A stretch of 64,000 nt of DNA from Micropterix aruncella (taxonomy: Eukaryota > Arthropoda > Insecta > Lepidoptera > Micropterigidae): NCBI GenBank assembly GCA_944548615.1, contig OX155950.1, forward strand, positions 30,907,691 through 30,971,690, read 5' to 3'. The notes below the pieces were generated by a model, which ran no database searches, was not told the origin of the DNA, and was given only the letters and a program-made list of their open reading frames with translations. The translations under genes were made by a program, and so were the position numbers. Below are positions 1,737 through 43,586 of the stretch, piece after piece (position 1 is the first letter of the stretch; the number at the start of each line of letters is the position of its first letter).

Positions 1737-1737
1737 C

Positions 1738-1829: not shown

Positions 1830-1834
1830 GTGTC

Positions 1835-2690: not shown

Positions 2691-2699
2691 CTTAAAAAA

Positions 2700-4698: not shown

Positions 4699-4867
4699 TT
4701 ATATACTTTCTATACAACAAAATAAAATTCGAAATTTAAATTCTAAGTGTCAACATATTTTAAAATTTTCTCCCCTCTAAATAATAATTAAATAATAAAT
4801 TTTAGTTATTATAGTGCAATTCTATAGTCTGGATTAACTCGCGGTTAACACGGGACGCGTCCCGAAG

Positions 4868-15879: not shown

Positions 15880-16103
15880 GTATTTTTTAATATATCTTTC
15901 TTTCATTATTATTATTTAATTATCATTCATTACTTTGATTAAATTTTAGATTATTCTTGCAGATTTTTTTGAATAAATATTTTATTCTAATTACTCTATT
16001 TTGACAATTTTAAAGATTTTTTAAATTCTCATAATATTTTTAATTACTTTAATTACTAACTACCCTAATTACTAACTAACTAATATTTTTAATTACTAAC
16101 TAC
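15880..16103 (+). repeat. Left half of a dispersed repeat split by the giant element
   Basis: This AT-rich block (for example ACTTTGATTA, GGATTATTCTTG-like and TTTTGAATAA stretches) matches 44445-44610. The match is broken exactly at the giant element and resumes at 43583. It is non-coding. Confidence 0.7.
16100..16103. other. Left target-site duplication CTAC
   Basis: The four bases CTAC immediately before the first LTR recur immediately after the second LTR (43583-43586). Four-base duplications are usual for several insect Ty3/gypsy lineages. Confidence 0.8.
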
Positions 16104-16308
16104 TGTAATGTTCCATACTGGGGTCAAGAAAAACTCAACAAATGTCATCTGACCACTGATTTTATGTAATTGATATCTTTAGCAATATATGACATTCGGA
16201 TATTAACCCTTAGAAAACCATCCATGAGAATGAAATTCACTACGGCATGTTTTCAACTCTTGACAGTCTGTTTGTGAGGGGGTGTTAGTGTGCACATACT
16301 AATATATA

Positions 16309-16656
16309 ATGGTGTCTTATTCAATGAAGAAAACTTTTAAAAACATAAAAGTTGCAAGTTTGCATAAATACGAAGATCGGCTGTCTGCAAATCATCACAA
16401 CAGAAAACCACCGATCGGTGGTATTGGCGTTTCAGAGGTTGATAGGATACGAAACACAGATGAGAATTTCATTGCTTTTCAATTACAATGCGGTCCTTAT
16501 AGAAAGATAACAATCAGTGGCACAATTAAGTGCAGGGGTGCGATATCATTGAACTATGAAATTGCCGCCATACAGATAAAAGACACCAATAAAGGAAAAA
16601 TGTGGACACGGGAAAAAATTAATGATCCAGATGGTTTTAAACAGCTGGGGGCGTAG
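16309..16656 (+). CDS. 115-aa ORF in 5' LTR, unknown function
   Basis: Starts at the ATG overlapping a TATA-like CTAATATATAATGG, with a second in-frame Met at codon 6 (MVSYSMKK). I do not recognise the product. It has a basic N-terminus, a NHHNRKPPIGGIGVSEVDRI segment, a middle with alternating hydrophobic residues (FIAFQLQCGPYRKITISG) that could be beta strands, and a charged C-terminus. There is no signal peptide or membrane segment. The copy in the 3' LTR encodes the same protein, but the element is so young that this is weak evidence of selection. It could be an accessory protein of the element or a chance ORF; its TATA box is so close that the start may lie at a downstream exon instead. 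Confidence 0.35.
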   Translation: MVSYSMKKTFKNIKVASLHKYEDRLSANHHNRKPPIGGIGVSEVDRIRNTDENFIAFQLQCGPYRKITISGTIKCRGAISLNYEIAAIQIKDTNKGKMWTREKINDPDGFKQLGA

Positions 16657-17111
16657 CATACCAGAAATTGCGACACCTGCATTCAATCGTAAGAGGGGAA
16701 GATAAAGTATGAGGAGAGTGAGAAACAAACATGAAGGGGCGTATGAAATGAGTATATCTAATTATAACTACTAGATGTGATTGGAGAAAGAAATTACCAG
16801 AAATGACAGAGTTCGGTTCTGTGGGATTAAAAGGGGGCAATAAATAAAGCAAGATGCCAGGTGCAGATGATAATCGTCTGATGACTCATCGAATCCCGAG
16901 CAAACTCCATACAAGAAAATTCTAGAAGGCAATAAATTAATTGACAAAGTGACAGGTTTTTGTTGACACTCATAAAAATGCAATGTGACATAAAAACGAA
17001 CCCCACCAAAGCTTCTAATTACTAGGAAATTGGAGGTGTGGCGTTATTTGATTGGCTAAAAGACGAAATTTAGTGAGTGGAAGGGTTAAGGAGTCATGGA
17101 GGGGGAAAGCC

Positions 17112-17405
17112 TATTTAAGGCGTTGCACAGGGGGATTCGTGGCATTTCGAAGAGGATTCCGGGCCAGCTCAAGAGGATCAAGACGGACAGGACTCCGGGA
17201 CCAACTCAAGAGGATTCAAGACTCACTGGGCAATGAAGATGACTCATCCTCCGAGGGATCACAGCCAGCAGAGTCATTTATCGACCGTTCGATGAGTGAA
17301 ATAATTCGGAGTATTTTTTTAACCTACGGAAACGCGAGCTGCTCTCCGACGAGTTGGCTGAAGAAGTATTATTCTATTTGCAAGTATTTAGAGTCAGTGA
17401 ATAAA
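17112..17405 (+). promoter_or_regulatory. Possible LTR core promoter and poly(A) signal
   Basis: TATTTAA at 17112-17118 is followed about 290 bp later by AATAAA at 17400-17405. In an LTR this spacing would fit transcription start and polyadenylation within an R region. Between them an open frame without an early ATG (17052-17492) and a 46-codon ORF beginning ATGGAGGGGGAAAGC at 17092 overlap in different frames; neither is recognisable. AT-rich DNA yields such motifs often, so this is tentative. Confidence 0.35.
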
Positions 17406-17599
17406 ACAGTTTGTAGATTTCAAAATTTAAATAATATAATACAGGGAATTCCTTTTCGGTTCGGACATCGGGGAGATCAGTTTTTCGATTGATAAACTAA
17501 AATGTGTTGAGTAAAATAAAAAAATAAACAATAAAGTAAATTTCATAAAAATAAAACGAATCCTATTAGGATTTTTAAGAAAAATAATAAAACACTTCA

Positions 17600-19690
17600 A
17601 AATTAATGCTTTTCTAGAAAACGTCGTATTACGCCAGAATATATTCAGTTGCAAAGACAAAATATAAAAATTGAAATAATCAATCAAAATTAATGGTTTC
17701 CTAAAAACCGACTGAATTCTTTAAAATATATCGAATTCTTGAGGACAGGCCATAAAAAAATGAAATAATCAATCAACTTTAATGGTTTTCTAAAAAAACC
17801 GACGGAATTCATTAAAATATACCCTATTCTCGAAGATAGGCCATAAAAAAATGATATAATCAATCAATAATCGTGATCTTCTAAAAAACGATATAATTCA
17901 TTAATATAATTCCAATTCTCGAAGATAGGCCATAAAAAATGATATAATCAATCAATAATCGTGATCTTCTAAAAAACGATATAATTCATTAATATAATTC
18001 CAATTCTCGAAGATAGGCCATAAAAAATGATATAATCAATCAATAATCGTGATCTTCTAAAAAACGATATAATTCATTAATATAATTCCAATTCTCGAAG
18101 ATAGGCCATAAAAAATGATATAATCAATCAATAATCGTGATTTTCTTAAAAAACGATATAATTCATTAATATAATTCCAATTTTCAAAGATCGGCCATAA
18201 AAAAACGAAGTAATCAACAAACAGCTTTGAAATTCTAGAAATCAATGTAGTTCACCAAAATATATTTATTTTCAAAGATCGGCCATAAAAAACGAAGTAA
18301 TCCACAAACAGCTTTGAAATTCTAGAAATCAATGTAGTTCACCAAAATATATTTATTTTCAAAGATCGGCCATAAAAAAAACGAAGTAATCCACAAACAG
18401 CTTTGAAATTCTAGAAATCAATGTAGTTCACCAAAATATATTTATTTTCAAAGATCGGCCATAAAAAACGAAGTAATCCACAAACAGCTTTGAAATTCTA
18501 GAAATCAATGTAGTTCACCAAAATATATTTATTTTCAAAGATCGGCCATAAAAAAAACGAAGTAATCAACAAACAGCTTTGAAATTCTAGAAATCAATGT
18601 AGTTCACCAAAATATATTTATTTTCAAAGATCGGCCATAAAAAACGAAGTAATCCACAAACAGCTTTGAAATTCTAGAAATCAATGTAGTTCACCAAAAT
18701 ATATTTATTTTCAAAGATCGGCCATAAAAAACGAAGTAATCCACAAACAGCTTTGAAATTCTAGAAATCAATGTAGTTCACCAAAATATATTTATTTTCA
18801 AAGATCGGCCATAAAAAACGAAGTAATCCACAAACAGCTTTGAAATTCTAGAAATCAATGTAGTTCTCCAAAATATATTTATTTTCAAAGATCAGCCATA
18901 AAAAACGAAGTAATCAACAAACAGCTTTGAAATTCTAGAAATCAATGTAATTCACCAAAATATATTCAGTTTCCAAAAACAGACCATAAAATACTAAGTA
19001 GTCAATCGACAGCCTTGAAATTCTAAAAAACGATATAATTCGTCTTAATATATTCAGTTTCCAAAAACAGACCATAAAATACTAAGTAGTCAATCAACAG
19101 CCTTGAAATTCTAAAAACGATATAATTCGTCTTAATATATTCAGTTTCCAAAAACAGACCATAAAATACTAAGTAGTCAATCGACAGCCTTGAAATTCTA
19201 AAAAACGATATAATTCGTCTTAATATATTCAGTTTCCAAAAACAGACCATAAAATACTAAGTAGTCAACCGACAGCCTTGAAATTCTAAAAAACGATATA
19301 ATTCGTCTTAATATATTCAGTTTCCAAAAACAGACCATAAAATACTAAGTAGTCAACCGACAGCCTTGAAATTCTAAAAAAAAACGATATAATTCGTCAT
19401 AATATATTCAGTTTCCAAAAACAGACCATAAAATACTAAGTAGTCAACCAATACCCTTGAAATTCTAAAAAACGATATAATTCGTCTTAATATATTCAGT
19501 TTCCAAAAACAGACCATAAAATACTAAGTAGTCAACCAATACCCTTGAAATTCTAAAAAACGATATAATTCGTCATAATATATTCAGTTTCCAAAACAGA
19601 CCATAAAATACTAAATAGTCAACCAACATCCTTGAAATTCTAAAAAACGATATAATTCGTCATGATATATTCAGTTTCAAAAAAAAAAAA
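17600..19690. repeat. Tandem array, about 22 units of 87-88 bp, 5' LTR
   Basis: Each unit contains GGCCATAAAAAA or GACCATAAAATAC. Three subfamilies follow in order: about 5 early units (ATGATATAATCAATCAATAA), 9 middle units (CGAAGTAATCAACAAACAGC) and 8 late units (TACTAAGTAGTCAAC). Middle units carry CTTTGAAAT and ATTTTCAAAG, which can pair into a stem with a loop of about 45 bases. Units of 87 bp keep frame, giving on the minus strand a 29-residue repeat containing IDYLVFYGLFLETEYI. Confidence 0.95.
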
Positions 19691-19854
19691 AAACACAAAT
19701 ATAAAATGTAAATTAAAAAAAAAAAAAAATTATTTTGATAGAAGTTTTAGGAGTTTGATCTGGAAGGTGATTGGGTTCCTGACCAAGTCGATAAAAAATG
19801 TCGAGACTAACTTGGACGGTGATCGTTTACCCAAAGGATTGAACTTGTAAATTC

Positions 19855-21170
19855 ATAAAATAATAAAACAGAAAAAAATCTAAAAATACTTGTAAAGTTG
19901 CAAAATTACAAGAAGCTCGGAAAACCGCAAGATTACAAGGAAATTAGTCGGTTTCTTTGAGAAACGTTGTAAATTAATAAAACAGATAAAATCTAAAAAT
20001 ACTCGTAAAATCGCAAAATTGCAAGAATGTTGGTCGATTTCTTTACAAAACGTTGTAAATTAATAAAACAGATAAAATCTAAAAATACTCGTAAAATCGC
20101 AAAATTACAAGAATATTGGACGATTTCTTTACAAAACGATGTAAAATAATAAAACAGAAAAAAAATCTAAAAATACTCGTAAAATCGCAATATTACAAGA
20201 AAATTAGTCGATTTCATTGAAAAACGTTGTAAATTAATAAAACAGATAAAATCTAAAAATACTCGTAAAATCGCAAAATTACAAGAAAATTAGCCTATTT
20301 CTTTGAAAAACGTTGTAAAATAATAAAACAAATAAAATCTAAATATACTCGTAAAGTTGCAAAATTACAAGAAGCTCGGAAAACCGCAAGATTACAAGAA
20401 AATTAGTCGGTTTCGTTGAGAAACGTTGTAAAAACAATAAAACAAATAAAATCTAAAAATACCCGTAAAATCGCAAAATTACAAGGAAATTAGTCGGTTT
20501 CGTTGAGAAACGTTGTAAATTAATAAAACAGATAAAATCTAAAAATACTCGTAAAATCGCAAAATTACAAGGAAATTAGTCGGTTTCGTTGAGAAACGTT
20601 GTAAATTAATAAAACAGATAAAATCTAAAAATACTCGTAAAATCGCGAAATTACAAGAATGTTGGTCGATTTCTTTACAAAACGTTGTAAATTAATAAAA
20701 CAGATAAAATCTAAAAATACTCGTAAAATCGCAAAATTACAAGAATGTTGGTCGATTTCTTTACAAAACGCTGTAAAATAATAAAACAGATAAAATCTAA
20801 AAATACTCGTAAAATCGCAATATTACAAGAAAATTAGTCGATTTCTTTGAAAAAAAACGTAGTAAAATAATAAAACAAATAAAATCTAAATATACTCGTA
20901 AAGTTGCAAAATTACAAGAAGCTCGGAAAACCGCAAGATTACAAGAAAATTAGTCGATTTCTTTGAGAAACGTTGTAAAATAATAAGACAAATAAAATCT
21001 AACGATACTCTGAAAGCCGAAAAAATTACAAGAAAATTAGCCGAATTCTTTGCAAAACGTTGTAAAATAATAAAACAGATAAAATCTAAAAATACTCGTA
21101 AAGTTGCAAAATTACAAGAAGCTCGGAAAGCCGCAAAATTACAAGAAAATTAGCCGATTTCTTTGAACTA
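19855..21170. repeat. Second tandem array, about 14 units near 86 bp, 5' LTR
   Basis: Unit core: AATACTCGTAAAATCGCAAA, then ATTACAAG, GTCGATTTCTTT and AAAACGTTGTAAATTAATAA. Some units are lengthened by a GCTCGGAAAACCGCAAGA insertion that looks like a partial internal duplication. The stretch GATTTCTTTGAAAAACGTTG aligns loosely with GATCTTCTAAAAAACGATAT of the first array, so the two arrays may share an ancestor. A 150-bp spacer (19700-19850) separates them. Confidence 0.95.
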
Positions 21171-21851
21171 TGTATCCAAATGATAATCTAGTAGTAGTGT
21201 CATATGATCTTCAGTTAATTCGACAGTAATAAAATAATAATGATTATATTAAATTTTGGACTAAAGAAAGTTAAAAATAAGACAGTGGAATGCGTTATAA
21301 AAGATACGTAAAAATTTATAAAAATTGGAAAATTTAGAAAGGCCTAAATAAACATATATATAAAATAGTAGAGGGATTGATAAATCTTATATCTACACAT
21401 GGAAGGATATATAATCGAAAAGTTGATAGCGAATATAAACACATAATATCATACAAGGAATTAATTTATATGTATTTATAAAACATATTATGGTAAAATA
21501 TTAGAATTCATTAAGAGGAATAGGAATAGGTTGTTAGGCGACTCCAGTGGCGAACCAGATTGGTGAGTTGTTTTGATTTTTTTGCAGGAGACCATGTTCA
21601 ATGGAAATAATACAGAGATGTTTTTTTGTGTGATAATGTCAAAGAAACTCTAAGAGAATTAAAACAAGAGAATTTGATAATTATAGACTATAAAATAGGA
21701 TTCTTTGAATACTGTTGGCAATATAATATTATAATCTGAGAATTGAGAGTGGCAGATGTATTTATGTGGATGAATTACAATTTGATCAATATTTGAAAGA
21801 AAAATATTGGAATTAAAAGTAATTTTTATAATTAGTTTTAAAATTGTTTTG

Positions 21852-22170
21852 TCATAAAAAGAGCTTGTGCATGACATGGGCTTTGTAATATATATATTAG
21901 ATGGTGATGTGTTTATATTTAGATATGTTAGAATGGTGGTGGAGTATTTTTTTGTAACTAGTTTTGGGTTGTTTTGATGTTAAATGGGCTGTGCATGAGA
22001 CGGGGCTTTTCTACATATTAAATGGTGGTGGGTTTATATATTGATATGTTAGAATGGTGGTGGAGTATTTTTTGTAACTAGTTTTGGATTTGTTTGTTAT
22101 AAAATGGCTGTGCATGAATTTGGCTTTGATACAAGTTGTAGGGTGGAAAGGTAGTATTTAAATATGTTGG
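21852..22170. repeat. Three tandem copies of about 125 bp, 5' LTR
   Basis: Each copy has a TGTGCATGA stretch, ATGGTGGT, a GATATGTTAGAATGGTGGTG-like segment and TTTTTGTAACTAGTTTTGG. The third is more diverged. Non-coding. Confidence 0.8.
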
Positions 22171-23964
22171 AACGATGGTGAAGTTGTATTTTATATCTTA
22201 TTTGTATGTAGTAAGCGAAGATATTTATGAGTATATTTATTTTTATGTATATATGTTATATATGAGTAAATATATGTATATATATAGATATGTGTGTATG
22301 TATATATGTGTGTATATATTTTATGTGTGAGTGTATTATGACTGAGTGTGTGTGTGGCTATGAGAAGATGATAGTGGAGATGTGTATTTTGTTGGGTATA
22401 CAAGGAATGTTTTATAGTATGAGGTATGGATTTTGATGTGAAATTTTAGCTAGTTGGCTTTGTCATTGTTTTAATCTTGAGTATCACAATTTCGTATCAA
22501 ATTCGCAAGTTTGACTTGTCTTTTCTGGAATGAGAGAATGGCAGGTGAGACTGAGTATTTTTTTTCTATTGTTTCGCTCTGGGAATGACTGGACAATATC
22601 AAAGATACGATTAATTGGAGGCTGTTTGCTTTTCTTCTCGATTCAAGCAAAGCGGATCGATTATGGGTTTGCATGAGTGGTTGTACTATTGGTTGTCCAC
22701 CACTGGAAGAAAAGTGATCCGTTGCGCTACCCCTGACGTGTCGTTGTGGCTGGCAGGGCTCGCTGGCGCTTCATTGGTTGGTTTTCGTAAGTTGACAATT
22801 TGATAGAGCGGAGAGATCGGAAGCGATGACAACGGTAAAACGAGGTACTGGCGCTGCCAGAATAATATGAAAATGATATCTTATTTTGTTAAGTTTGGAT
22901 TTGGTTAGATAGTTTTTTATAAATACTAGAACGAATATGACTATTAGGCAATCAATTAGAATATTTATATATGTATATATGTATGCATAGCTATAGTTTT
23001 AGATATATTTTTTTAAGGAAAGGAATTATGCTTTAGTTATTTGTTTATTTGAGATTGATTTCGATATTGGATGAGTGGATGAATGAGTGTAGAAAAGTAT
23101 AGGATTCCATACATTCATTCTTCTGAGGTCGAAACTGGTTTACGTCCGAATTTCATAAAACAAATTTAAAATAAATAATTTTAGAAGGATTGTATTACAA
23201 AAGGACATAGAATGGGACTGCTCTCTGAATATTCATGATTTTGGTCCTGCTTTTGGTGAATTGGATTGGCTGTATTGGGAAAATGTAGATTTCAACTCGT
23301 TCATTTTTTTTCGAGACTGGGACTGAGTCGCGTTCGCTCTTCGGGAAGGAACGGGAAAGTTTGGAATGGTCGATACACAAACGCGATCTTCAATAAAATA
23401 TGAAACGGAAATATACTTTAAATTACATTTTCTTCTAACAATAAATAATAACATTAAATAATAAAAAAAAAAGGTCTGATTGTAAGGGAATTATAAGAAA
23501 AATAGATTTGTATATTTTTTTAATAATTGATAGATGTTTTGTAACTTCAAATTCCTAAAAACTTCCTCCTATATCTCCTCCATTAAAACATCCAGAATCC
23601 TAATATAGAATCAATTTTATTATAGACTTTATGAATCCCACATTCAAGTAAATTCAAATTAGATTTTTAGCTACATGCTAATTTGTTTATTTTTTTAATG
23701 TGATGGCGCACGGACTATCTTAGTCCTTTCACAATGAAATGAAAATATTCAACATAAATAAGTAAAAACTAGTACAGCGAATGAAATAAGTTGTATCTAT
23801 TGAGTGGAAATGGTTGAGAAGGAGGTTGTTATACGATGGAGATTGGAAGTGCTACATTTGAAAGAACGGAATTGTCATCTTTAACACTATACCAACAACT
23901 ACGAGGTTTACAAAGGTTATAACGAAATTTAGCTGTATTCACCGTAGTGCACAGGTTGCAGGTG

Positions 23965-24152
23965 CTGGCGCTTAGTTGATGAGACCTAGGCGGGTGGTAC
24001 TTGTTGCCTGTGGTGGATTGAGTTGACGAGACCTCATCCTGCAACGATGTCCCTGTTTAGGCTTTTGTACAGAGTTGACGAGACCTCTGCAAATGCAACG
24101 TGGTTTAGGGTTGTACAGAGTAGACGAGACCTCTGCAACACAACGTGGGAAA
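23965..24152. repeat. Four copies of a GTTGACGAGACCT repeat, 5' LTR
   Basis: Units of about 45-50 bp built around GAGTTGACGAGACCTCTGCA. The spacing is about the length of one nucleosome linker turn pattern or a protein-bound module; no function is known. The same array is present at 42372-42559. Confidence 0.8.
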
Positions 24153-25175
24153 ACAACGGTATAGTGTGAACTTGACTCTATCGTTTGATCAGAGTAGCAT
24201 CGATAATCTTCACGTCGAATGACCAACAATCAACAGAAACTCAATCAACGTTATGGATTACGCTTTCTTCGGTAAACATCTTCGGAACGAGAAATCTTCG
24301 ATACGTAAATGTATCATCTTCGGAACGAGCTAACCCTAAAAGGGTATCACAAATTATCTACTCATCATGTTCCAGAAATCCTAAAATATTTGCGTCATCA
24401 CGCACGGTTGTGGTAAGGAGCAGCGAGGGGTGGTAAATGGTGGCTGCACTCAATCCCCTCCCCCCGGGAGAAATCTCAACACTATCCTTAAAATCCATCT
24501 ACATTGTAAAATATATAAATGACCAAAAATTATTCATTTAACTATACAGTTAGTAATTACACCGAGATAAAAATATCTATCACTTTTTTAAATAAGAGAA
24601 AAGCTAGAACTGTAGGTATTGTGTTATAAAAATAGTCAAAGTTATGATGATTACTTGTTTTTTTTTGACGAGAGAAGCTATTCGTGTCCAAATTGTACTA
24701 GAAAACACATTATTGTGATGAATGTGACCGATTTTCTACTCCATGTCTATTATCAATATGAATGTTGAGAGAATGTCTGTTTGACGGGCAAAGGGTTGAA
24801 ATCTACATTTACTTGGTCTTATGCTCTATATTTGTTGTCGATGTGAATGTTCAGTGAGTATCTGTTAAAAGGGGCAAAGCGTTGTAATCAGCATCAGTTT
24901 GTTTGTGAGATTGAGAGTACGTGTTTGCTTAGATGATGACTCCAGAATGCGTTGAATTGTGACTTCCGAAAGGTTAAGTTTGTAAGGATTGGAGTGAATG
25001 GTAGAGATGTTATGAATGGTTGTGTGTATATATGTATATATGATGTATATATTTATATTATGTTTATATTTTTATCATATTATTGTATTGAAATATCTAT
25101 GCGTATATAAGTATATATAGTATCAGCGGGGAGCTCAATGACAGTCTTTTTTAGACCGGGGTTGTGACTCTTTCA

Positions 25176-25460
25176 ATTGGTGCTGCGTGACCATGAGGAT
25201 GTCAGTAACCATAGGGATTACTGCGGCTAACACAACGGTTTTAACTACTAGATTGATCATGAGCCAAATTAGATTTTTTGAATTTTTGCGAAAATTTTGG
25301 TACAAAATTTTGTTACCTGAAAAGTTCATTTAAAAGAAAGAGACAGATGTCCTGAACACGAAAAAGAGTTCATTTAGTGCCGCGTGACCATAGAATACTA
25401 GTAACCTTAGTGGTTACTGCGGCTAACACAACGATTTAAATCACTAAGATCATTACCGAA
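25176..25460. repeat. Two-copy repeat at start of the internal region
   Basis: GCGTGACCAT, AGTAACC and TTACTGCGGCTAACACAACG occur twice, about 200 bp apart (near 25185-25265 and 25380-25450). Non-coding. Confidence 0.75.
25178..25200 (+). promoter_or_regulatory. Primer-binding-site-like sequence
   Basis: TGGTGCTGCGTGACCATGAG begins 2 bp after the first LTR. As I remember insect tRNA-His, its 3' end would be complementary to TGGTGCCGTGACCAGGAT, so the match holds if two small insertions are allowed (after TGGTGC and after GACCA). A related GTGCCGCGTGACCATAG occurs 200 bp downstream. The position is right for a reverse-transcription primer site; the match is imperfect. Confidence 0.35.
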
Positions 25461-25989
25461 TCTTAGATATTTGATTACTCATTGGGATTTAAATAGTTAT
25501 ATTTTAGAAAGAAAATAAGAGCTCAGATACATTTACATTTGAAAAAATCAAGAACCAATTTGGGGAGCATCTGGCAACGCTAAAACGCCACTGTGCCACT
25601 GTTTGGGCGGGCGGTAAGCATTGTTGTTTGGGCGAAATGGTGACGCTATTAACGGTGTCACGAAAAAATGGTGACAGAGGGGTTCTGTGCCGAGCGTTCA
25701 AACACGGGTTTTTGTTGCACCTGCGGATGCATCTTTTATTGTGTATCGGGGGTATAAATGACAATGACTTTGGGGGCGCTGGGGACTCGCACTGTGGGGC
25801 ATAGGACGCTAGGCTGTTAAATGTAGTTGAGTATGATATAATAAAATGAAAATTCATAAATAATAATCAATTGGTTTTAAAACATTGGGATCGAGTATGC
25901 ATGTAATTATGTATATGTATATGTATATATATGTGTGTGTATGAATGCAGTTTGAAGTAGTTCCAAGATCTTTAAAATCAGGTTAGAAT

Positions 25990-27115
25990 CATATATTAGG
26001 GACGTAGAGAACAGCGCTGTATCAGAGATCTGACTCTCGCGCCCTTACTTCCAGTTGTGGTAGATTTACTCCGATCTCTGGACTGGTTGCGGGTTCGGGT
26101 TCGCTTGGGCGAGTTTCTCCCTGGTGTAACGAGTGAGGTGGTGTTAATCGATTTATAGCGGACCATGGCATCTTTTGCCTGACTGTTTGTCCAGGGTTGA
26201 TGGATATTCAATCCATTCCGGGATTGGCTGTCATCAGGTGGACGACCAATTTTCTCTGTAGAAGACAGTATTATATTCAGACTTCCCCGACTGTTGGGAC
26301 AACAAGGGTTGTCGACTACGGCGGGCGAGCCCGACACCTCAGGAAGTTTTAATGATTGGTTGTTCTATCTTCCTGGAGTAAGTGCAGAAAACTTGGACAA
26401 AACAGTCCACTGTCTACATCAGACACAAACTCGTAGGAGGTCAACACCTTAGCTGCGAGATAGACGGGAGTGTTACTCAGCGGGCTTGCACTCGCGCCTT
26501 TACTTCCAATTACAAACCAGATTACTCCGGTCTCTCGATTGATTAAGGGTTCGAGGTCGCTTGTGCGGTCCTCTCTCTTACGGGGCGGTGAGACGGTGTA
26601 TACCGAATCTGTCGCGGACCATGGCATCCTTTGCACGGCTGTTGGTACAGTATCGGGTAGCCGATGGGGCGGTCGCCGTGGGGTCCGCAACCACCTCACT
26701 CTATAGGAAACAGTATTGCTTCCAGACTCCCCGACTGTTGGTCGGAGTGCATCATCGATTGACTTACGCCGCACGGTGCGCAAACCGTCCAGGAGCGCCA
26801 AAGGTTGATTCCCAGGGGAAACTAATCATGGGGTCAGAGTTCTATCTGGGTTCGCGCTTCGTGCGTGGAGGCCGTCGGATGGGTGTTAGCCCGTGAATGT
26901 GATCAGCCAGAGTAGGATAGGTCTTCGTAGCCAACTCAGCAAGTGCCCATTCACTCACTGTTGGATAAAATGCACAGTCAATTGACTGATGCCGCACAGT
27001 GCGCAAACCGCCCAGGAGCGCCCAAAGTTGATCCCAAGGAGAGACTGACTCGCGGATTGGAGTCGTACCTAGGACCGCGCTTCTGCGTGAAAGGCACTGG
27101 ATGTATGTGATTCTC
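25990..27115. repeat. Dispersed repeat family copy inside the giant element
   Basis: Contains two related halves, each with a GCGGACCATGGCATC stretch, a CTCCCCGACTGTTGG-like stretch and, in the second half twice, CACCGCACGGTGCGCAAACC-type sequence. Relatives are at 52121-52760 and 61232-62106 (shared GTCGACTAC..GGGCGA, CCGGTCTC-type and GCCGCACGG.GCGCAAACC stretches). The open frames at 26349-26896 on both strands overlap each other and follow the GC-rich base pattern; I do not think they are genes. Confidence 0.65.
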
Positions 27116-27129
27116 TGAGTTGAACCGAT

Positions 27130-28480: not shown

Positions 28481-28639
28481 GCCGTTGTCTAGGGTAGACT
28501 GAAGAGCTGTCAGTCCGTAGTTTTGCGAGTAGGCCGAAAAACCGCTGCCGCCACTGCATAGGTTATAACGGTGGTGGGGGGCCAGGCTCGGAGCGCGGGA
28601 ATTTTTAAAAAATCTGTCTTGCATACAACACTCACTGTA

Positions 28640-29245: not shown

Positions 29246-29269
29246 ATCCTATTTATAATGTCAAACGGC

Positions 29270-32200: not shown

Positions 32201-33000
32201 ACTTAGTATTTTAGTATAAAACTTTTGAAAAAGACTTACGGGTCAGGTAATGATTCTGGACCTTATACTTGTCTTGGTGGTTTTCAATGAGCGAAATGCA
32301 GATGGGCACAACTTCACAAATGAATTCAAACATAGTAAAAACATTACTTTTCAATATTTCAGTAGAAGTACTGAACGGCAGAGCGAAGGAATCGGTTGTG
32401 ATCAAATTTGGTTCACTGGGAAGGCAAAGATACAGGTAGCAAAAGGGGTCTGTCAATTTTTTCTTGAGGTGAGTTTTTTTATTCAAGCGAAGGGACACCA
32501 TTGTTCATGTGATACCCAGATGCGGGTGGCTCACGTAAATTTAAGGTGACAGGGGTTTATTACTCTGTTCATGAATTATGGGTATTGAACTGATTTGGAT
32601 CTACGGTTTTGTGGGAACTGTTATAGTCACTCAATATCAATTGGTAAGTTGATTTCTTGGAGAGACTTGGATTAATACTCAATGTGTGTAAATCGTGATC
32701 GAATAGTCAGTTTTGAAAAATTACTACAACTATTACCAAGTATTCGGCATCGAACAATTGGCTTTTAGAAATATATACATGATTTTGAACATATACAAGA
32801 ATATTAAAGAAAAATGGATGTTATTTAAAAAGTCACAGAAAAAGTGAAAAATTATGACAATATCGTACGTTGAGTTCGCTAATGAGTTTTAAGTTATTTT
32901 AATGGTAATAGAGAGGGAGAAATATGTATATGTATTAGGTAGGAGTAAGTGTATGTATGTATGTATGTTGGTATGTATGGTATGTATGATATGTATGAAT
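29270..33000. other. AT-rich internal region, no gene seen
   Basis: The longest frames are short and low in complexity. A 99-codon ORF at 32250-32549 begins with a hydrophobic MILDLILVLVVF stretch but has no recognisable domain. No gag zinc knuckle, protease DTG/DSG, YXDD or integrase motif was found here by eye. Confidence 0.5.
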
Positions 33001-33025
33001 GAGTTTATGAACATTTTTGAAGTTC

Positions 33026-33535
33026 ATGCATGGAGTCAAATTTGTAACATTCACTTAAATATTAATAAATATTCAGTGATAACATACAAAAGATCATCTA
33101 CTCATCTGATGTATGATTACTCCATCGCTGAATGTGAGCTTCTTGGAGTTACTAAAGTCAAGGACTTGTAGATTTTTCTTTGACTCCAAGTTAAACTTCA
33201 AGTAACACTTTAGATAATTATCTACAACTTCTTACAAGCTTCCAGGGTTTATGATATATTAATCCAAACACTTCATTGATATTCGGATTATGTGCCCGTT
33301 GTATTACAATCATTATATGCGATTGTTAGAAGTCGCATGGAAACGAGTACGGCCGTTTGGAATTCGCATGGGAATATTTATACTCTCAAGCTGGAAAGGG
33401 TACAGAAATGTTCTTTTGAGATTTTTCTTCAAGCGGAACGGATAATGTCCATTTTTGTATCTGACTGCATTTATCATAGACAGGGTTGGCCGTAATTCTC
33501 TTTGTCTGAGAAGAGAAGTGTTTACCATGTCTTGA
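33026..33535 (+). pseudogene. LINE reverse transcriptase C-terminal fragment
   Basis: Reading across frameshifts gives WSQICNIHLNINKYSVITY, YDYSIAECELLGVTKVKDL followed by a stop and FLDSKLNF-like residues, then AIVRSRMETSTAVWNSHG and NIYTLKLERVQK. This matches the region downstream of the catalytic box in Jockey/CR1-like non-LTR retrotransposons. The YXDD box is not present upstream and there are several stops. It lies in the 3' part of the giant element's internal region. Confidence 0.65.
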
Positions 33536-33539
33536 GGTT

Positions 33540-34510
33540 TTAGACTAGGTTATAGTAGAACTGGTAACTTTGGTTTGCTGGCCAGGGTGAATCTTTCATA
33601 CTGGGTGGTTGTCTTCGTGCTTGATCGCACCACATTTCGCGGAACCGTTCTCGCGCACTAACCTTGCTAAGTTGGATATGTTGGCGTGCTTTGCGGCGCT
33701 TAAATGAGATTCACTCAAAGACATTGAGTTCCTATATTTAATTACCTTCGTCTGTTAGAATTGCAAGCTATTGATTGTTTATTATTATAAGACATCTAGT
33801 ATTATGAATATCACTTTAAAGGTATAGTAGCAGTGATATCTTTATTAATTTTCTTCTCAACACCTTGGTTTTACTGTTGAGTTGATTGGCGATGGATGAA
33901 TGGTTGGAATGAATAAATAAACAGATAGATAACGATATGTATATATGAGAAAAAAATACACTTCTTGATATAAAAAAAATAATAATAATAATAATATATT
34001 AGGGAAACTGAGAGTTTTTTTCTTGATGTTTGAACCGAGTAAGAAAGTGTATCTATCATTCAAATCTAAATAGAATAAAGGGGTCAATAAATTAAAACAG
34101 TTTACACGGTAAATTAAAAAAAATGACTTTTATAAATATAAAAGAAATCGAAGAGGGCGAGTAAGACTTGATAAATAAAGCAGAAGGAATTGAAGTGATG
34201 GGACACGAAGAAATAAGAACTGATACGGAGGAAGATGGAAGAATAAGATTGATACATGAAGGAAAACAAAGAACAAATCGGTCATGGTATCCAACAAACA
34301 TAAGAGATCAAAGGATTGACCATGTAATAAATAAGATGGGAGGAGAGATGATGGCAACTGGGAACATTATCTGAGATGATATACCCTTGTATCATTAATA
34401 AAATCAGTAGAATTTCCAGAGTTATAATATAGGGGAACTATCTATTATGAAATTAAATTCTAAAATTTCCAGACTACGTAAGTAAATTTCAGAAATTTTA
34501 TTTGGGCGAT
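33540..34510. other. 3' end of internal region, no polypurine tract seen
   Basis: No gene. Purine-rich stretches occur at about 34145-34300, but the 20 bp just before the second LTR end TTTTATTTGGGCGAT, which is not a polypurine tract. This is the weakest point of the LTR interpretation. Confidence 0.5.
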
Positions 34511-34715
34511 TGTAATGTTCCATACTGGGGTCAAGAAAAACTCAACAAATGTCATCTGACCACTGATTTTATGTAATTGATATCTTTAGCTATATATGAC
34601 ATTCGGATATTAACCCTTAGAAAACCATCCATGAGAATGAAATTCACTACGGCATGTTTTCAACTCTTGACAGTCTGTTTGTGAGGGGGTGTTAGTGTGC
34701 ACATACTAATATATA

Positions 34716-35063
34716 ATGGTGTCTTATTCAATGAAGAAAACTTTTAAAAACATAAAAGTTGCAAGTTTGCATAAATACGAAGATCGGCTGTCTGCAAATC
34801 ATCACAACAGAAAACCACCGATCGGTGGTATTGGCGTTTCAGAGGTTGATAGGATACGAAACACAGATGAGAATTTCATTGCTTTTCAATTACAATGCGG
34901 TCCTTATAGAAAGATAACAATCAGTGGCACAATTAAGTGCAGGGGTGCGATATCATTGAACTATGAAATTGCCGCCATACAGATAAAAGACACCAATAAA
35001 GGAAAAATGTGGACACGGGAAAAAATTAATGATCCAGATGGTTTTAAACAGCTGGGGGCGTAG
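34716..35063 (+). CDS. 115-aa ORF in 3' LTR, unknown function
   Basis: Second copy of the ORF at 16309-16656, with the same start context and an identical predicted protein. In an LTR element the 3' copy would not normally be the translated one unless the LTR drives its own transcript; both are equally open here. No family recognised. Confidence 0.35.
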   Translation: MVSYSMKKTFKNIKVASLHKYEDRLSANHHNRKPPIGGIGVSEVDRIRNTDENFIAFQLQCGPYRKITISGTIKCRGAISLNYEIAAIQIKDTNKGKMWTREKINDPDGFKQLGA

Positions 35064-35518
35064 CATACCAGAAATTGCGACACCTGCATTCAATCGTAAG
35101 AGGGGAAGATAAAGTATGAGGAGAGTGAGAAACAAACATGAAGGGGCGTATGAAATGAGTATATCTAATTATAACTACTAGATGTGGTTGGAGAAAGAAA
35201 TTACCAGAAATGACAGAGTTCGGTTCTGTGGGATTAAAAGGGGGCAATAAATAAAGCAAGATGCCAGGTGCAGATGATAATCGTCTGATGACTCATCGAA
35301 TCCCGAGCAAACTCCATACAAGAAAATTCTAGAAGGCAATAAATTAATTGACAAAGTGACAGGTTTTTGTTGACACTCATAAAAATGCAATGTGACATAA
35401 AAACGAACCCCACCAAAGCTTCTAATTACTAGGAAATTGGAGGTGTGGCGTTATTTGATTGGCTAAAAGACGAAATTTAGTGAGTGGAAGGGTTAAGGAG
35501 TCATGGAGGGGGAAAGCC

Positions 35519-35812
35519 TATTTAAGGCGTTGCACAGGGGGATTCGTGGCATTTCGAAGAGGATTCCGGGCCAGCTCAAGAGGATCAAGACGGACAGGAC
35601 TCCGGGACCAACTCAAGAGGATTCAAGACTCACTGGGCAATGAAGATGACTCATCCTCCGAGGGATCACAGCCAGCAGAGTCATTTATCGACCGTTCGAT
35701 GAGTGAAATAATTCGGAGTATTTTTTTAACCTACGGAAACGCGAGCTGCTCTCCGACGAGTTGGCTGAAGAAGTATTATTCTATTTGCAAGTATTTAGAG
35801 TCAGTGAATAAA
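35519..35812 (+). promoter_or_regulatory. Possible LTR promoter and poly(A) signal, 3' copy
   Basis: TATTTAA at 35519-35525 and AATAAA at 35807-35812, identical in spacing to the 5' LTR. If real, transcripts started in the 5' LTR would end near here. Confidence 0.35.
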
Positions 35813-36006
35813 ACAGTTTGTAGATTTCAAAATTTAAATAATATAATACAGGGAATTCCTTTTCGGTTCGGACATCGGGGAGATCAGTTTTTCGATTGAT
35901 AAACTAAAATGTGTTGAGTAAAATAAAAAAATAAACAATAAAGTAAATTTCATAAAAATAAAACGAATCCTATTAGGATTTTTAAGAAAAATAATAAAAC
36001 ACTTCA

Positions 36007-38098
36007 AAATTAATGCTTTTCTAGAAAACGTCGTATTACGCCAGAATATATTCAGTTGCAAAGACAAAATATAAAAATTGAAATAATCAATCAAAATTAA
36101 TGGTTTCCTAAAAACCGACTGAATTCTTTAAAATATATCGAATTCTTGAGGACAGGCCATAAAAAAATGAAATAATCAATCAACTTTAATGGTTTTCTAA
36201 AAAAACCGACGGAATTCATTAAAATATACCCTACTCTCGAAGATAGGCCATAAAAAAATGATATAATCAATCAATAATCGTGATCTTCTAAAAAACGATA
36301 TAATTCATTAATATAATTCCAATTCTCGAAGATAGGCCATAAAAAATGATATAATCAATCAATAATCGTGATCTTCTAAAAAACGATATAATTCATTAAT
36401 ATAATTCCAATTCTCGAAGATAGGCCATAAAAAATGATATAATCAATCAATAATCGTGATCTTCTAAAAAACGATTTAATTCATTAATATAATTCCAATT
36501 CTCGAAGATAGGCCATAAAAAATGATATAATCAATCAATAATCGTGATTTTCTTAAAAAACGATATAATTCATTAATATAATTCCAATTTTCAAAGATCG
36601 GCCATAAAAAAACGAAGTAATCAACAAACAGCTTTGAAATTCTAGAAATCAATGTAGTTCACCAAAATATATTTATTTTCAAAGATCGGCCATAAAAAAC
36701 GAAGTAATCCACAAACAGCTTTGAAATTCTAGAAATCAATGTAGTTCACCAAAATATATTTATTTTCAAAGATCGGCCATAAAAAAAACGAAGTAATCCA
36801 CAAACAGCTTTGAAATTCTAGAAATCAATGTAGTTCACCAAAATATATTTATTTTCAAAGATCGGCCATAAAAAACGAAGTAATCCACAAACAGCTTTGA
36901 AATTCTAGAAATCAATGTAGTTCACCAAAATATATTTATTTTCAAAGATCGGCCATAAAAAAAACGAAGTAATCAACAAACAGCTTTGAAATTCTAGAAA
37001 TCAATGTAGTTCACCAAAATATATTTATTTTCAAAGATCGGCCATAAAAAACGAAGTAATCCACAAACAGCTTTGAAATTCTAGAAATCAATGTAGTTCA
37101 CCAAAATATATTTATTTTCAAAGATCGGCCATAAAAAACGAAGTAATCCACAAACAGCTTTGAAATTCTAGAAATCAATGTAGTTCACCAAAATATATTT
37201 ATTTTCAAAGATCGGCCATGAAAAACGAAGTAATCAACAAACAGCTTTGAAATTCTAGAAATCAATGTAATTCACCAAAATATATTCAGTTTCCAAAAAC
37301 AGACCATAAAATACTAAGTAGTCAATCGACAGCCTTGAAATTCTAAAAAACGATATAATTCGTCTTAATATATTCAGTTTCCAAAAACAGACCATAAAAT
37401 ACTAAGTAGTCAATCAACAGCCTTGAAATTCTAAAAACGATATAATTCGTCTTAATATATTCAGTTTCCAAAAACAGACCATAAAATACTAAGTAGTCAA
37501 TCGACAGCCTTGAAATTCTAAAAAACGATATAATTCGTCTTAATATATTCAGTTTCCAAAAACAGACCATAAAATACTAAGTAGTCAATCGACAGCCTTG
37601 AAATTCTAAAAAACGATATAATTCGTCTTAATATATTCAGTTTCCAAAAACAGACCATAAAATACTAAGTAGTCAACCGACAGCCTTGAAATTCTAAAAA
37701 ACGATATAATTCGTCTTAATATATTCAGTTTCCAAAAACAGACCATAAAATACTAAGTAGTCAACCGACAGCCTTGAAATTCTAAAAAAAAACGATATAA
37801 TTCGTCATAATATATTCAGTTTCCAAAAACAGACCATAAAATACTAAGTAGTCAACCAATACCCTTGAAATTCTAAAAAACGATATAATTCGTCTTAATA
37901 TATTCAGTTTCCAAAAACAGACCATAAAATACTAAGTAGTCAACCAATACCCTTGAAATTCTAAAAAACGATATAATTCGTCATAATATATTCAGTTTCC
38001 AAAACAGACCATAAAATACTAAATAGTCAACCAACATCCTTGAAATTCTAAAAAACGATATAATTCGTCATGATATATTCAGTTTCAAAAAAAAAAAA
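36007..38098. repeat. Tandem array, about 22 units of 87-88 bp, 3' LTR
   Basis: Same three subfamilies as in the 5' LTR, here with 8 middle and 9 late units. The last middle unit has GGCCATGAAAAAC where the 5' copy has CAGCCATAAAAAAC, suggesting that different units were lost or converted. Confidence 0.95.
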
Positions 38099-38262
38099 AA
38101 ACACAAATATAAAATGTAAATTTAAAAAAAAAAAAAAATATTTTGATAGAAGTTTTAGGAGTTTGATCTGGAAGGTGATTGGGTTCCTGACCAAGTCGAT
38201 AAAAAATGTCGAGACTAACTTGGACGGTGATCGTTTACCCAAAGGATTGAACTTGTAAATTC

Positions 38263-39578
38263 ATAAAATAATAAAACAGAAAAAAATCTAAAAATACTTG
38301 TAAAGTTGCAAAATTACAAGAAGCTCGGAAAACCGCAAGATTACAAGGAAATTAGTCGGTTTCTTTGAGAAACGTTGTAAATTAATAAAACAGATAAAAT
38401 CTAAAAATACTCGTAAAATCGCAAAATTGCAAGAATGTTGGTCGATTTCTTTACAAAACGTTGTAAATTAATAAAACAGATAAAATCTAAAAATACTCGT
38501 AAAATCGCAAAATTACAAGAATATTGGACGATTTCTTTACAAAACGATGTAAAATAATAAAACAGAAAAAAAATCTAAAAATACTCGTAAAATCGCAATA
38601 TTACAAGAAAATTAGTCGATTTCATTGAAAAACGTTGTAAATTAATAAAACAGATAAAATCTAAAAATACTCGTAAAATCGCAAAATTACAAGAAAATTA
38701 GCCTATTTCTTTGAAAAACGTTGTAAAATAATAAAACAAATAAAATCTAAATATACTCGTAAAGTTGCAAAATTACAAGAAGCTCGGAAAACCGCAAGAT
38801 TACAAGAAAATTAGTCGGTTTCGTTGAGAAACGTTGTAAAAACAATAAAACAAATAAAATCTAAAAATACCCGTAAAATCGCAAAATTACAAGGAAATTA
38901 GTCGGTTTCGTTGAGAAACGTTGTAAATTAATAAAACAGATAAAATCTAAAAATACTCGTAAAATCGCAAAATTACAAGGAAATTAGTCGGTTTCGTTGA
39001 GAAACGTTGTAAATTAATAAAACAGATAAAATCTAAAAATACTCGTAAAATCGCGAAATTACAAGAATGTTGGTCGATTTCTTTACAAAACGTTGTAAAT
39101 TAATAAAACAGATAAAATCTAAAAATACTCGTAAAATCGCAAAATTACAAGAATGTTGGTCGATTTCTTTACAAAACGCTGTAAAATAATAAAACAGATA
39201 AAATCTAAAAATACTCGTAAAATCGCAATATTACAAGAAAATTAGTCGATTTCTTTGAAAAAAAACGTAGTAAAATAATAAAACAAATAAAATCTAAATA
39301 TACTCGTAAAGTTGCAAAATTACAAGAAGCTCGGAAAACCGCAAGATTACAAGAAAATTAGTCGATTTCTTTGAGAAACGTTGTAAAATAATAAGACAAA
39401 TAAAATCTAACGATACTCTGAAAGCCGAAAAAATTACAAGAAAATTAGCCGAATTCTTTGCAAAACGTTGTAAAATAATAAAACAGATAAAATCTAAAAA
39501 TACTCGTAAAGTTGCAAAATTACAAGAAGCTCGGAAAGCCGCAAAATTACAAGAAAATTAGCCGATTTCTTTGAACTA
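38263..39578. repeat. Second tandem array, about 14 units near 86 bp, 3' LTR
   Basis: Equivalent to 19855-21170, with the same unit order including the lengthened GCTCGGAAAACCGCAAGA units. I saw no difference in unit number. Confidence 0.95.
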
Positions 39579-40259
39579 TGTATCCAAATGATAATCTAGT
39601 AGTAGTGTCATATGATCTTCAGTTAATTCGACAGTAATAAAATAATAATGATTATATTAAATTTTGGACTAAAGAAAGTTAAAAATAAGACAGTGGAATG
39701 CGTTATAAAAGATACGTAAAAATTTATAAAAATTGGAAAATTTAGAAAGGCCTAAATAAACATATATATAAAATAGTAGAGGGATTGATAAATCTTATAT
39801 CTACACATGGAAGGATATATAATCGAAAAGTTGATAGCGAATATAAACACATAATATCATACAAGGAATTAATTTATATGTATTTATAAAACATATTATG
39901 GTAAAATATTAGAATTCATTAAGAGGAATAGGAATAGGTTGTTAGGCGACTCCAGTGGCGAACCAGATTGGTGAGTTGTTTTGATTTTTTTGCAGGAGAC
40001 CATGTTCAATGGAAATAATACAGAGATGTTTTTTTGTGTGATAATGTCAAAGAAACTCTAAGAGAATTAAAACAAGAGAATTTGATAATTATAGACTATA
40101 AAATAGGATTCTTTGAATACTGTTGGCAATATAATATTATAATCTGAGAATTGAGAGTGGCAGATGTATTTATGTGGATGAATTACAATTTGATCAATAT
40201 TTGAAAGAAAAATATTGGAATTAAAAGTAATTTTTATAATTAGTTTTAAAATTGTTTTG

Positions 40260-40578
40260 TCATAAAAAGAGCTTGTGCATGACATGGGCTTTGTAATATA
40301 TATATTAGATGGTGATGTGTTTATATTTAGATATGTTAGAATGGTGGTGGAGTATTTTTTTGTAACTAGTTTTGGGTTGTTTTGATGTTAAATGGGCTGT
40401 GCATGAGACGGGGCTTTTCTACATATTAAATGGTGGTGGGTTTATATATTGATATGTTAGAATGGTGGTGGAGTATTTTTTGTAACTAGTTTTGGATTTG
40501 TTTGTTATAAAATGGCTGTGCATGAATTTGGCTTTGATACAAGTTGTAGGGTGGAAAGGTAGTATTTAAATATGTTGG
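40260..40578. repeat. Three tandem copies of about 125 bp, 3' LTR
   Basis: Same as 21852-22170. Confidence 0.8.
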
Positions 40579-42371
40579 AACGATGGTGAAGTTGTATTTT
40601 ATATCTTATTTGTATGTAGTAAGCGAAGATATTTATGAGTATATTTATTTTTATGTATATATGTTATATATGAGTAAATATATGTATATATATAGATATG
40701 TGTGTATGTATATATGTGTGTATATATTTTATGTGTGAGTGTATTATGACTGAGTGTGTGTGTGGCTATGAGAAGATGATAGTGGAGATGTGTATTTTGT
40801 TGGGTATACAAGGAATGTTTTATAGTATGAGGTATGGATTTTGATGTGAAATTTTAGCTAGTTGGCTTTGTCATTGTTTTAATCTTGAGTATCACAATTT
40901 CGTATCAAATTCGCAAGTTTGACTTGTCTTTTCTGGAATGAGAGAATGGCAGGTGAGACTGAGTATTTTTTTTCTATTGTTTCGCTCTGGGAATGACTGG
41001 ACAATATCAAAGATACGATTAATTGGAGGCTGTTTGCTTTTCTTCTCGATTCAAGCAAAGCGGATCGATTATGGGTTTGCATGAGTGGTTGTACTATTGG
41101 TTGTCCACCACTGGAAGAAAAGTGATCCGTTGCGCTACCCCTGACGTGTCGTTGTGGCTGGCAGGGCTCGCTGGCGCTTCATTGGTTGGTTTTCGTAAGT
41201 TGACAATTTGATAGAGCGGAGAGATCGGAAGCGATGACAACGGTAAAACGAGGTACTGGCGCTGCCAGAATAATATGAAAATGATATCTTATTTTGTTAA
41301 GTTTGGATTTGGTTAGATAGTTTTTTATAAATACTAGAACGAATATGACTATTAGGCAATCAATTAGAATATTTATATATGTATATATGTATGCATAGCT
41401 ATAGTTTTAGATATATTTTTTTAAGGAAAGGAATTATGCTTTAGTTATTTGTTTATTTGAGATTGATTTCGATATTGGATGAGTGGATGAATGAGTGTAG
41501 AAAAGTATAGGATTCCATACATTCATTCTTCTGAGGTCGAAACTGGTTTACGTCCGAATTTCATAAAACAAATTTAAAATAAATAATTTTAGAAGGATTG
41601 TATTACAAAAGGACATAGAATGGGACTGCTCTCTGAATATTCATGATTTTGGTCCTGCTTTTGGTGAATTGGATTGGCTGTATTGGGAAAATGTAGATTT
41701 CAACTCGTTCATTTTTTTTCGAGACTGGGACTGAGTCGCGTTCGCTCTTCGGGAAGGAACGGGAAAGTTTGGAATGGTCGATACACAAACGCGATCTTCA
41801 ATAAAATATGAAACGGAAATATACTTTAAATTACATTTTCTTCTAACAATAAATAATAACATTAAATAATAAAAAAAAAGGTCTGATTGTAAGGGAATTA
41901 TAAGAAAAATAGATTTGTATATTTTTTTAATAATTGATAGATGTTTTGTAACTTCAAATTCCTAAAAACTTCCTCCTATATCTCCTCCATTAAAACATCC
42001 AGAATCCTAATATAGAATCAATTTTATTATAGACTTTATGAATCCCACATTCAAGTAAATTCAAATTAGATTTTTAGCTACATGCTAATTTGTTTATTTT
42101 TTTAATGTGATGGCGCACGGACTATCTTAGTCCTTTCACAATGAAATGAAAATATTCAACATAAATAAGTAAAAACTAGTACAGCGAATGAAATAAGTTG
42201 TATCTATTGAGTGGAAATGGTTGAGAAGGAGGTTGTTATACGATGGAGATTGGAAGTGCTGCATTTGAAAGAACGGAATTGTCATCTTTAACACTATACC
42301 AACAACTACGAGGTTTACAAAGGTTATAACGAAATTTAGCTGTATTCACCGTAGTGCACAGGTTGCAGGTG

Positions 42372-42559
42372 CTGGCGCTTAGTTGATGAGACCTAGGCGG
42401 GTGGTACTTGTTGCCTGTGGTGGATTGAGTTGACGAGACCTCATCCTGCAACGATGTCCCTGTTTAGGCTTTTGTACAGAGTTGACGAGACCTCTGCAAA
42501 TGCAACGTGGTTTAGGGTTGTACAGAGTAGACGAGACCTCTGCAACACAACGTGGGAAA
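42372..42559. repeat. Four copies of a GTTGACGAGACCT repeat, 3' LTR
   Basis: Same as 23965-24152. Confidence 0.8.
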
Positions 42560-43582
42560 ACAACGGTATAGTGTGAACTTGACTCTATCGTTTGATCAGA
42601 GTAGCATCGATAATCTTCACGTCGAATGACCAACAATCAACAGAAACTCAATCAACGTTATGGATTACGCTTTCTTCGGTAAACATCTTCGGAACGAGAA
42701 ATCTTCGATACGTAAATGTATCATCTTCGGAACGAGCTAACCCTAAAAGGGTATCACAAATTATCTACTCATCATGTTCCAGAAATCCTAAAATATTTGC
42801 GTCATCACGCACGGTTGTGGTAAGGAGCAGCGAGGGGTGGTAAATGGTGGCTGCACTCAATCCCCTCCCCCCGGGAGAAATCTCAACACTATCCTTAAAA
42901 TCCATCTACATGGTAAAATATATAAATGACCAAAAATTATTCATTTAACTATACAGTTAGTAATTACACCGAGATAAAAATATCTATCACTTTTTTAAAT
43001 AAGAGAAAAGCTAGAACTGTAGGTATTGTGTTATAAAAATAGTCAAAGTTATGATGATTACTTGTTTTTTTTTGACGAGAGAAGCTATTCGTGTCCAAAT
43101 TGTACTAGAAAACACATTATTGTGATGAATGTGACCGATTTTCTACTCCATGTCTATTATCAATATGAATGTTGAGAGAATGTCTGTTTGACGGGCAAAG
43201 GGTTGAAATCTACATTTACTTGGTCTTATGCTCTATATTTGTTGTCGATGTGAATGTTCAGTGAGTATCTGTTAAAAGGGGCAAAGCGTTGTAATCAGCA
43301 TCAGTTTGTTTGTGAGATTGAGAGTACGTGTTTGCTTAGATGATGACTCCAGAATGCGTTGAATTGTGACTTCCGAAAGGTTAAGTTTGTAAGGATTGGA
43401 GTGAATGGTAGAGATGTTATGAATGGTTGTGTGTATATATGTATATATGATGTATATATTTATATTATGTTTATATTTTTATCATATTATTGTATTGAAA
43501 TATCTATGCGTATATAAGTATATATAGTATCAGCGGGGAGCTCAATGACAGTCTTTTTTAGACCGGGGTTGTGACTCTTTCA

Positions 43583-43586
43583 CTAC
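43583..43586. other. Right target-site duplication CTAC
   Basis: CTAC directly after the terminal CA of the second LTR; matches 16100-16103. Confidence 0.8.

Follow-up and report, generated by a model that had tools for sequence, protein, structure and literature searches.

How does a 27.5-kb element that has the ends of a retrotransposon, and none of its detectable genes, come to be inserted in an insect genome? The question is raised by a stretch of 64,000 nucleotides of Micropterix aruncella (Lepidoptera, Micropterigidae; GCA_944548615.1, contig OX155950.1, positions 30,907,691 to 30,971,690 of the forward strand), which we call the window. It contains a giant element comprising two long terminal repeats (LTRs) of 9,072 bp around an internal region (INT) of 9,335 bp, with CTAC at each outer side. 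It is very probably a recent insertion from a giant family of non-autonomous LTR elements, similar to the large retrotransposon derivatives (LARDs), that has been moved with the enzymes of autonomous Ty3/gypsy elements of the type of an element that we term B.

Terminal repeats and target-site duplications

The 5′ LTR (16104..25175) and the 3′ LTR (34511..43582) enclose the internal region (25176..34510). All three are on the + strand, as are the other features of the element given below unless stated otherwise, the target-site duplications and a deletion scar being unstranded. When the window is compared with itself by BLAST the two LTRs align at 99.58% over 9,074 columns, and both start TGTAATGTTCCA and finish GTGACTCTTTCA (i.e. 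TG...CA). The CTAC duplication is at 16100..16103 and 43583..43586. Self-comparison and reading of the ends thus confirm the repeats, interior and flanks described in the original prediction.

The contigs of the host assembly (1.08 Gb in 742 contigs) are denoted here by C and a number, the window copy being C1. The LTR start is intact at at least 18 places, with an identical TG at each; 15 of these have differing genomic flanks and three are at junctions of interior and LTR, one per full element. The first search with the LTR scored 40 of its 2,640 candidate places, and counts taken from it are therefore a lower bound. When 1.3 kb from the 3′ part of the LTR served as the query, all 38 candidates were scored, and they comprise some 24 LTR copies at ≥91% together with older remnants. 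Three full copies were found, in C1, C20 and C36, with their LTR starts 18.4, 20.9 and 30.8 kb apart. A further 12 stretches of LTR length with both ends (C320, two in C19, C2, C17, C23, C5, C9, C3, C13, C14 and C35) are probably solo LTRs; the C9 stretch was read throughout and that of C2 nearly so. Those in C2 and C14 are longer, at ~14.7 and ~11 kb, and the former has a long interspersed nuclear element (LINE) inside it. Broken copies of the giant are present on C666.

There are 15 loci at which both LTR ends were readable, and at 13 of these they are bordered by a perfect 4-bp duplication. The sequences are CTAC (C1), CAAT (C36) and AACC (C20) for the full copies, and ATAT (C320), ATAC and AATT (C19), ATAG (C2), GTGT (C17), TTAG (C23), CACT (C5), CTAC (C9), TAAT (C3) and GTAT (C13) for the others. 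The remaining two have one mismatch, AGTT/ATTT in C14 and ACAC/ATAC in C35, the latter having the diverged LTR start of a second subfamily (subfamily 2). Left out of the count are C4, which has no 3′ end, and those loci with one or both ends unseen, namely C666, two places in C24, C37 and older fragments. The 3′ ends vary slightly, and all 15 of those counted end in CA. Direct TG...CA repeats bordered at independent loci by a short duplication of fixed length are a hallmark of LTR retrotransposons, and duplications of fixed length and differing sequence indicate insertion mediated by an integrase. The initial claim that such ends are very unlikely to arise by chance is thus upheld, and other full copies and probable solo LTRs with TG...CA termini and their own 4-bp duplications are present in the host assembly.

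C4 was considered as a full element and rejected; it comprises a 5′ LTR and ~195 nt of leader, followed by other DNA. A carboxylesterase frame (PF00135) is found some 8 kb past this truncated copy (locus L055, C4:29359401-29369400, at 165-1583 on the − strand).

Divergence of the repeats and exchange between copies

Both LTRs of a retrotransposon are made from one RNA template, so the LTRs of one element are expected to be alike and those of different elements to have diverged. This is what is found in all three pairs. Over the first 1,480 nt the two LTRs differ by two bases in C1, one in C36 and none in C20, while compared with C1 over the same interval C20 differs by 3.9%, C36 by only 0.3% and other loci by 0.3-7.6%. 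In a tree of LTR starts the C1 pair groups together, as does the C20 pair, and the two C36 LTRs are closest to each other. We take the sequences to show that the family has moved by reverse transcription, via an RNA copy.

Global alignment of the C1 pair gave nine substitutions in ~8,900 compared positions, a divergence of ~0.1%. All but a single base of the 352 gap columns falls in four blocks of 87-88 nt, each the size of one unit of a tandem array. If mutations arise at an insect-like ~3e-9 per site per generation, this divergence would put the insertion of the window copy at of the order of 100,000-200,000 generations ago.

The copies are not related in the same way along their length. C1 and C36 differ at 5 of 1,479 positions where the LTR begins, and where it ends at 39 of 1,200 with a further 129 gap columns. 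In the first part of the interior C1 is a little nearer to C20, with 23 differences in 2,882 positions, than to C36, with 27 in 1,884, yet the LTR start of C1 is 3.9% from that of C20. The window copy is, on these comparisons, a mosaic of the kind that template switching between packaged RNAs would give.

Lack of detectable gag-pol and a candidate helper

The interior of the family is common to its copies, those of C20 and C36 matching the window interior piece by piece at ~88-98% identity. All stop-free pieces of at least 55 aa were scanned against Pfam, matches up to E 0.1 being considered. The 47 internal and 35 LTR pieces gave only weak matches (best E 0.012) to 12 unrelated families, one piece each, and none to a retrotransposon domain, although a degenerate pol in shorter pieces could escape such a scan. 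A captured host gene in the interior was sought among the same pieces and rejected, and no tRNA or Rfam family reaches its gathering score in the window. The translation of 28440-29250 on the − strand resembles what we take to be a degenerate fragment of a Penelope-type endonuclease, for which Pfam gave no match among the pieces scanned. The expectation of a giant, LARD-like, non-autonomous family with no visible gag-pol therefore holds: the interior is shared by three copies and shows no gag-pol either in the Pfam scan of these pieces or in tblastn with BEL/Pao queries.

Immediately internal to the 5′ LTR each full copy has TGGTGCTGCGTGACCA, after which comes GGAT in C36 and C20 or TGAGGAT in the window. 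Host tRNA-His(GTG) genes end TTCGAATCCTGGTCACGGCA at five places, and both of the two checked by ARAGORN are tRNA-His. The complement of this end with CCA added is the 18-mer TGGTGCCGTGACCAGGAT. C36 and C20 carry the full 18-mer split by a 2-nt insertion, and the window copy has 3 nt more. The primer-binding site (PBS)-like sequence of the window at 25178..25200 is thus of tRNA-His type, reading TGGTGC(TG)CGTGACCA(TGA)GGAT, where the bracketed bases have no counterpart in the tRNA complement. It forms part of a leader (INT 2-216, 25177..25391), which is followed by a second, diverged PBS-leader unit (INT 199-297, 25374..25472) with 77% identity to INT 2-103, so that the giant itself carries two such units. 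At the other end TATTTGGGCGAT occupies the position of the polypurine tract (PPT) at 34499..34510, directly 5′ of the 3′ LTR. The sequence TTTGGGCGA(T/C) at this junction is kept in the three full copies, in subfamily 2 and in B; it is short and not a pure run of purines.

A pattern search with the PBS motif found seven places, compared with one for a reversed-pattern control. The 18-mer is exact at five of the seven (loci L062-L066), following LTR-like ..TCA-A at four of these and ..GCAATA at the fifth. No long gag-like frame was seen by eye within ~3 kb downstream of these five, which does not imply that they are non-coding, since the leader of B is itself nearly 6 kb long. L063 is element B, and the other exact-form loci might represent additional long-leader families of giant gypsy elements. 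A PBS-like match at C2:8577104 was rejected, as it adjoins unrelated sequence and has no frame >134 aa in the 4 kb read.

B is located at C9:32511658-32533979. From its coordinates it is 22.3 kb long, with LTRs of 5.2 kb that have TG...CA ends and differ by six substitutions in 5,199, and a target-site duplication AGTG/AGTG. Its frames, which were read in two pieces, encode G-patch, aspartic protease, reverse transcriptase, RNase H and integrase domains, the integrase being similar to that of Ty3; the best match of its pol piece among the 21 proteins listed has 71% identity over 75% of the piece. The same element occurs in C19, C9:32528677 and C19:21284459 being 98% identical over 3,016 columns.

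The giant and B agree in the length of the target-site duplication (4 bp) and in the tRNA-His type of the PBS. Across the 33 nt that span the PPT and LTR start the giant (TATTTGGGCGATTGTAATGTTCCATACTGGGGT) and B (TTTTTGGGCGACTGAGATGAACCTGACTGGGGT) agree at 25 sites, compared with at most 20 at any of 72,976 background positions in the flanks of the window and 9 for a BEL/Pao element nested in the C36 copy. In addition, the LTR and the PBS of the C9 copy of B are separated by the leader of the giant (INT 2-216, 83% over 238 columns), while in C19 the LTR of B is followed directly by the PBS. The leader in C9 can be the result of template switching between co-packaged RNAs, or it can be a tandem PBS unit present by common descent and lost in C19. 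Under either origin the shared leader ties the giant to the gypsy group of B.

From these signals, i.e. a matching PPT and LTR start, PBS type and duplication length together with the leader in the C9 copy, elements of B type are the most likely helpers mobilizing the giant in trans. The original prediction of movement in trans thereby gains a candidate helper, while the mobilization itself we infer. An RNA of ~18 kb would start inside the LTR, near the TATA-like TATTTAAG at LTR position 1009 (17112..17119), a possible promoter. The RNA would then enter particles of B type and be primed by tRNA-His, and the reverse transcriptase and integrase of B would copy it and insert the product, leaving 4-bp duplications.

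Some observations weigh against this assignment. Likeness between B and the giant is confined to the termini and the leader and does not extend to their LTR bodies, and common descent of the tandem PBS unit could explain the shared leader without template switching. The PBS of the giant is not an exact complement of tRNA-His, being interrupted by 2 nt, or by 5 nt in the window copy. The gag of B is assigned by position, its frame having no Pfam match, and one copy of B (C9) was read over its length. The likeness of LTR pairs is also poorer in the arrays, with 32 differences in 2,995 positions in C36 and 171 in 2,976, plus 46 gap columns, in C20, whose LTRs are unequal by coordinates (~8.0 and ~8.9 kb). 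We ascribe the poorer likeness and unequal lengths to changes of array units.

The alternative that survives best, improbable as we judge it, is that the giant derives, by internal deletion, from an autonomous element that had these 9-kb LTRs and whose intact copies have been lost or are unassembled. Non-autonomous LTR elements commonly originate in this way, and in an assembly of 742 contigs, with broken copies on C666, an intact copy might be missed. However, searches with the leader junction (19 candidates) and the 3′ end of the interior (6), all scored, found no coding copy with these LTRs. Among the 3′ LTR ends that were read, covering the flanks of some of the copies, the primer site follows only the giant and its relatives. 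Moreover one interior is common to the three full copies, the gag-pol found in C36 being that of the nested BEL element. Note that this alternative concerns origin, and is compatible with mobilization in trans.

There is only a slight chance that the giant was moved by BEL/Pao machinery, such as that of the nested element. The latter (L031/L032) has pol domains, long open frames and 2,358-bp LTRs that are 99.9% alike, and lies in the same orientation as its C36 host. However, it is recognizable as a nested insertion by those LTRs and because the copies in the window and C20 lack it. Its PBS region (TAAGCTGGTCC...) is different, as is its PPT and LTR start with 9 of 33 matches. With a BEL/Pao pol and its upstream frame as queries tblastn gave no match to the window element at E≤10, and the giant has no Pao protein match and signals unlike those of this one Pao element compared. 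BEL/Pao was accordingly rejected as the helper on PBS, PPT and nesting. Least probable of all is an assembly artefact or tandem segmental duplication mimicking LTRs, for while the repeats are long and nearly identical, with arrays that pose difficulties for assembly, each locus has its own flanks, with perfect 4-bp duplications at 13 of 15, the LTRs are alike within elements and diverged between them, and PBS- and PPT-like signals sit at the expected junctions.

Architecture, related systems and neighbouring sequences

Two tandem arrays occupy much of the LTR. That with a unit of 87/88 bp lies at about LTR 1561-3578 (17664..19681; counterpart in the 3′ LTR 36071-38092), and that with a unit of 86 bp at 3813-5064 (19916..21167; counterpart 38324-39575). 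The solo LTR of C9 is 6.1 kb long and lacks LTR 1492-4326, so that part of the length of the LTR reflects either growth of arrays in other copies or loss at C9. AATAAA motifs are present at LTR 1297-1483, just 3′ of the TATA-like motif. Diverged relatives keep LTR 344-1497, whole or in part, at 73-81%, and both kinds of motif fall within this segment. From the positions of the motifs and the conserved segment we suggest a U3 of ~1 kb and a very long U5, which would account for most of the LTR and would have grown in part by expansion of the tandem arrays.

Within the interior, 31755..31765 is a probable deletion scar. C20 and C36 hold extra sequence at this point, the window copy having apparently been deleted between short repeats, and the C20 copy carries a LINE fragment near the same spot. 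The stretch INT 7843-8712 (33018..33887) is LINE-derived, with 78% identity to the RVT_1 LINE nested in the C2 copy.

The LTRs of the LARD elements of barley are ~4.5 kb long. LARDs (Kalendar et al. 2004, as cited in PMC6431247) have long LTRs, a non-coding interior common to the copies, retained cis signals and target-site duplications, and an assumed movement in trans, and all of these have parallels in the giant. The giant differs from the barley elements in the length of its LTRs (9.07 kb) and the large tandem arrays within them, in a total of ~27 kb or more, and in its insect host. We infer that it works like a LARD, whose features it fits as far as examined, and that its mobilization is likewise in trans.

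The giant, with no detectable pol, resembles the gypsy element B in its signals alone: they share the PPT and LTR start, the tRNA-His primer type, TG...CA ends, 4-bp duplications and, in one copy, the leader. In contrast to B the giant has no detectable gag-pol, its LTR body is unrelated, and its LTRs are 9.07 kb rather than 5.2 kb. The Burro elements of planarians and Ogre elements of plants are also gypsy-type giants, of 16 to >30 kb (PMC6431247), but those have coding regions, whereas the giant has none detected and has longer LTRs. In the same source it is mainly LTRs of 1.9-6.5 kb that give Ogre its size, and the sequence enclosed by LTRs seldom exceeds 10 kb. TRIM elements, such as PbTRIM of an ant (PMC3532108), are likewise non-autonomous LTR elements in an insect; they are miniature, and the giant is at the opposite extreme of size. 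A source of 2012 gives LTRs from 80 bp to >5 kb, none that exceeded 1.5 kb being known at that date from Drosophila or Anopheles gambiae (PMC3485330). The 9-kb LTRs exceed the published values cited in these sources, i.e. >5 kb (PMC3485330) and 6.5 kb for Ogre (PMC6431247). A study of the honey bee lists 301 LARD models that were called automatically, without detailed manual inspection (PMC4028053). Among the top-ranked matches in the open-access literature we saw neither this family nor any animal LARD of such a size described before, an absence that is weak evidence. The giant is notable for its size, its insect host and the presence of a candidate helper in the same genome.

There is about an even chance that these elements form a two-part giant gypsy system, in which an autonomous element of ~22 kb, with 5-kb LTRs and a ~6-kb leader, is co-packaged with a gene-less relative that has 9-kb LTRs, the U5 of the latter growing by arrays and the exchanged leader and mosaic LTRs being the scars. 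If so, synthesis of a minus-strand strong-stop DNA of ~8 kb would be tolerated, far past what is usually assumed. A recently active, gene-less giant with a candidate helper makes several matters testable: the maximum length of strong-stop DNA and packaged RNA, whether the leader alone suffices for packaging, and the growth of tandem arrays inside LTRs. Annotation pipelines with an upper limit on LTR length would be expected to miss such elements.

Virus-like frames lie upstream of the internal ends of two subfamily-2 giant LTRs on C32. At locus L060 (C32:4589801-4599800) a fusion glycoprotein frame occupies 1981-3609 on the + strand (Pfam Monjiviricetes_fusion, E 1.7e-175); further partial glycoprotein copies were seen by eye, the last ending at 7603, some 2.2 kb upstream of the internal end. 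At L061 (C32:5442301-5452300) a frame similar to the rhabdovirus nucleocapsid is present at 637-1794 on the + strand (Pfam Rhabdo_ncap, E 6.6e-74), ~8 kb upstream of the other internal end, and some of the L061 sequence reads N. These raise the idea that viral genes have been captured. Finally, outside the giant element, the window has a frame with a YqaJ-like recombinase domain at 1021-1386 on the + strand (PF09588, E 2.2e-8).

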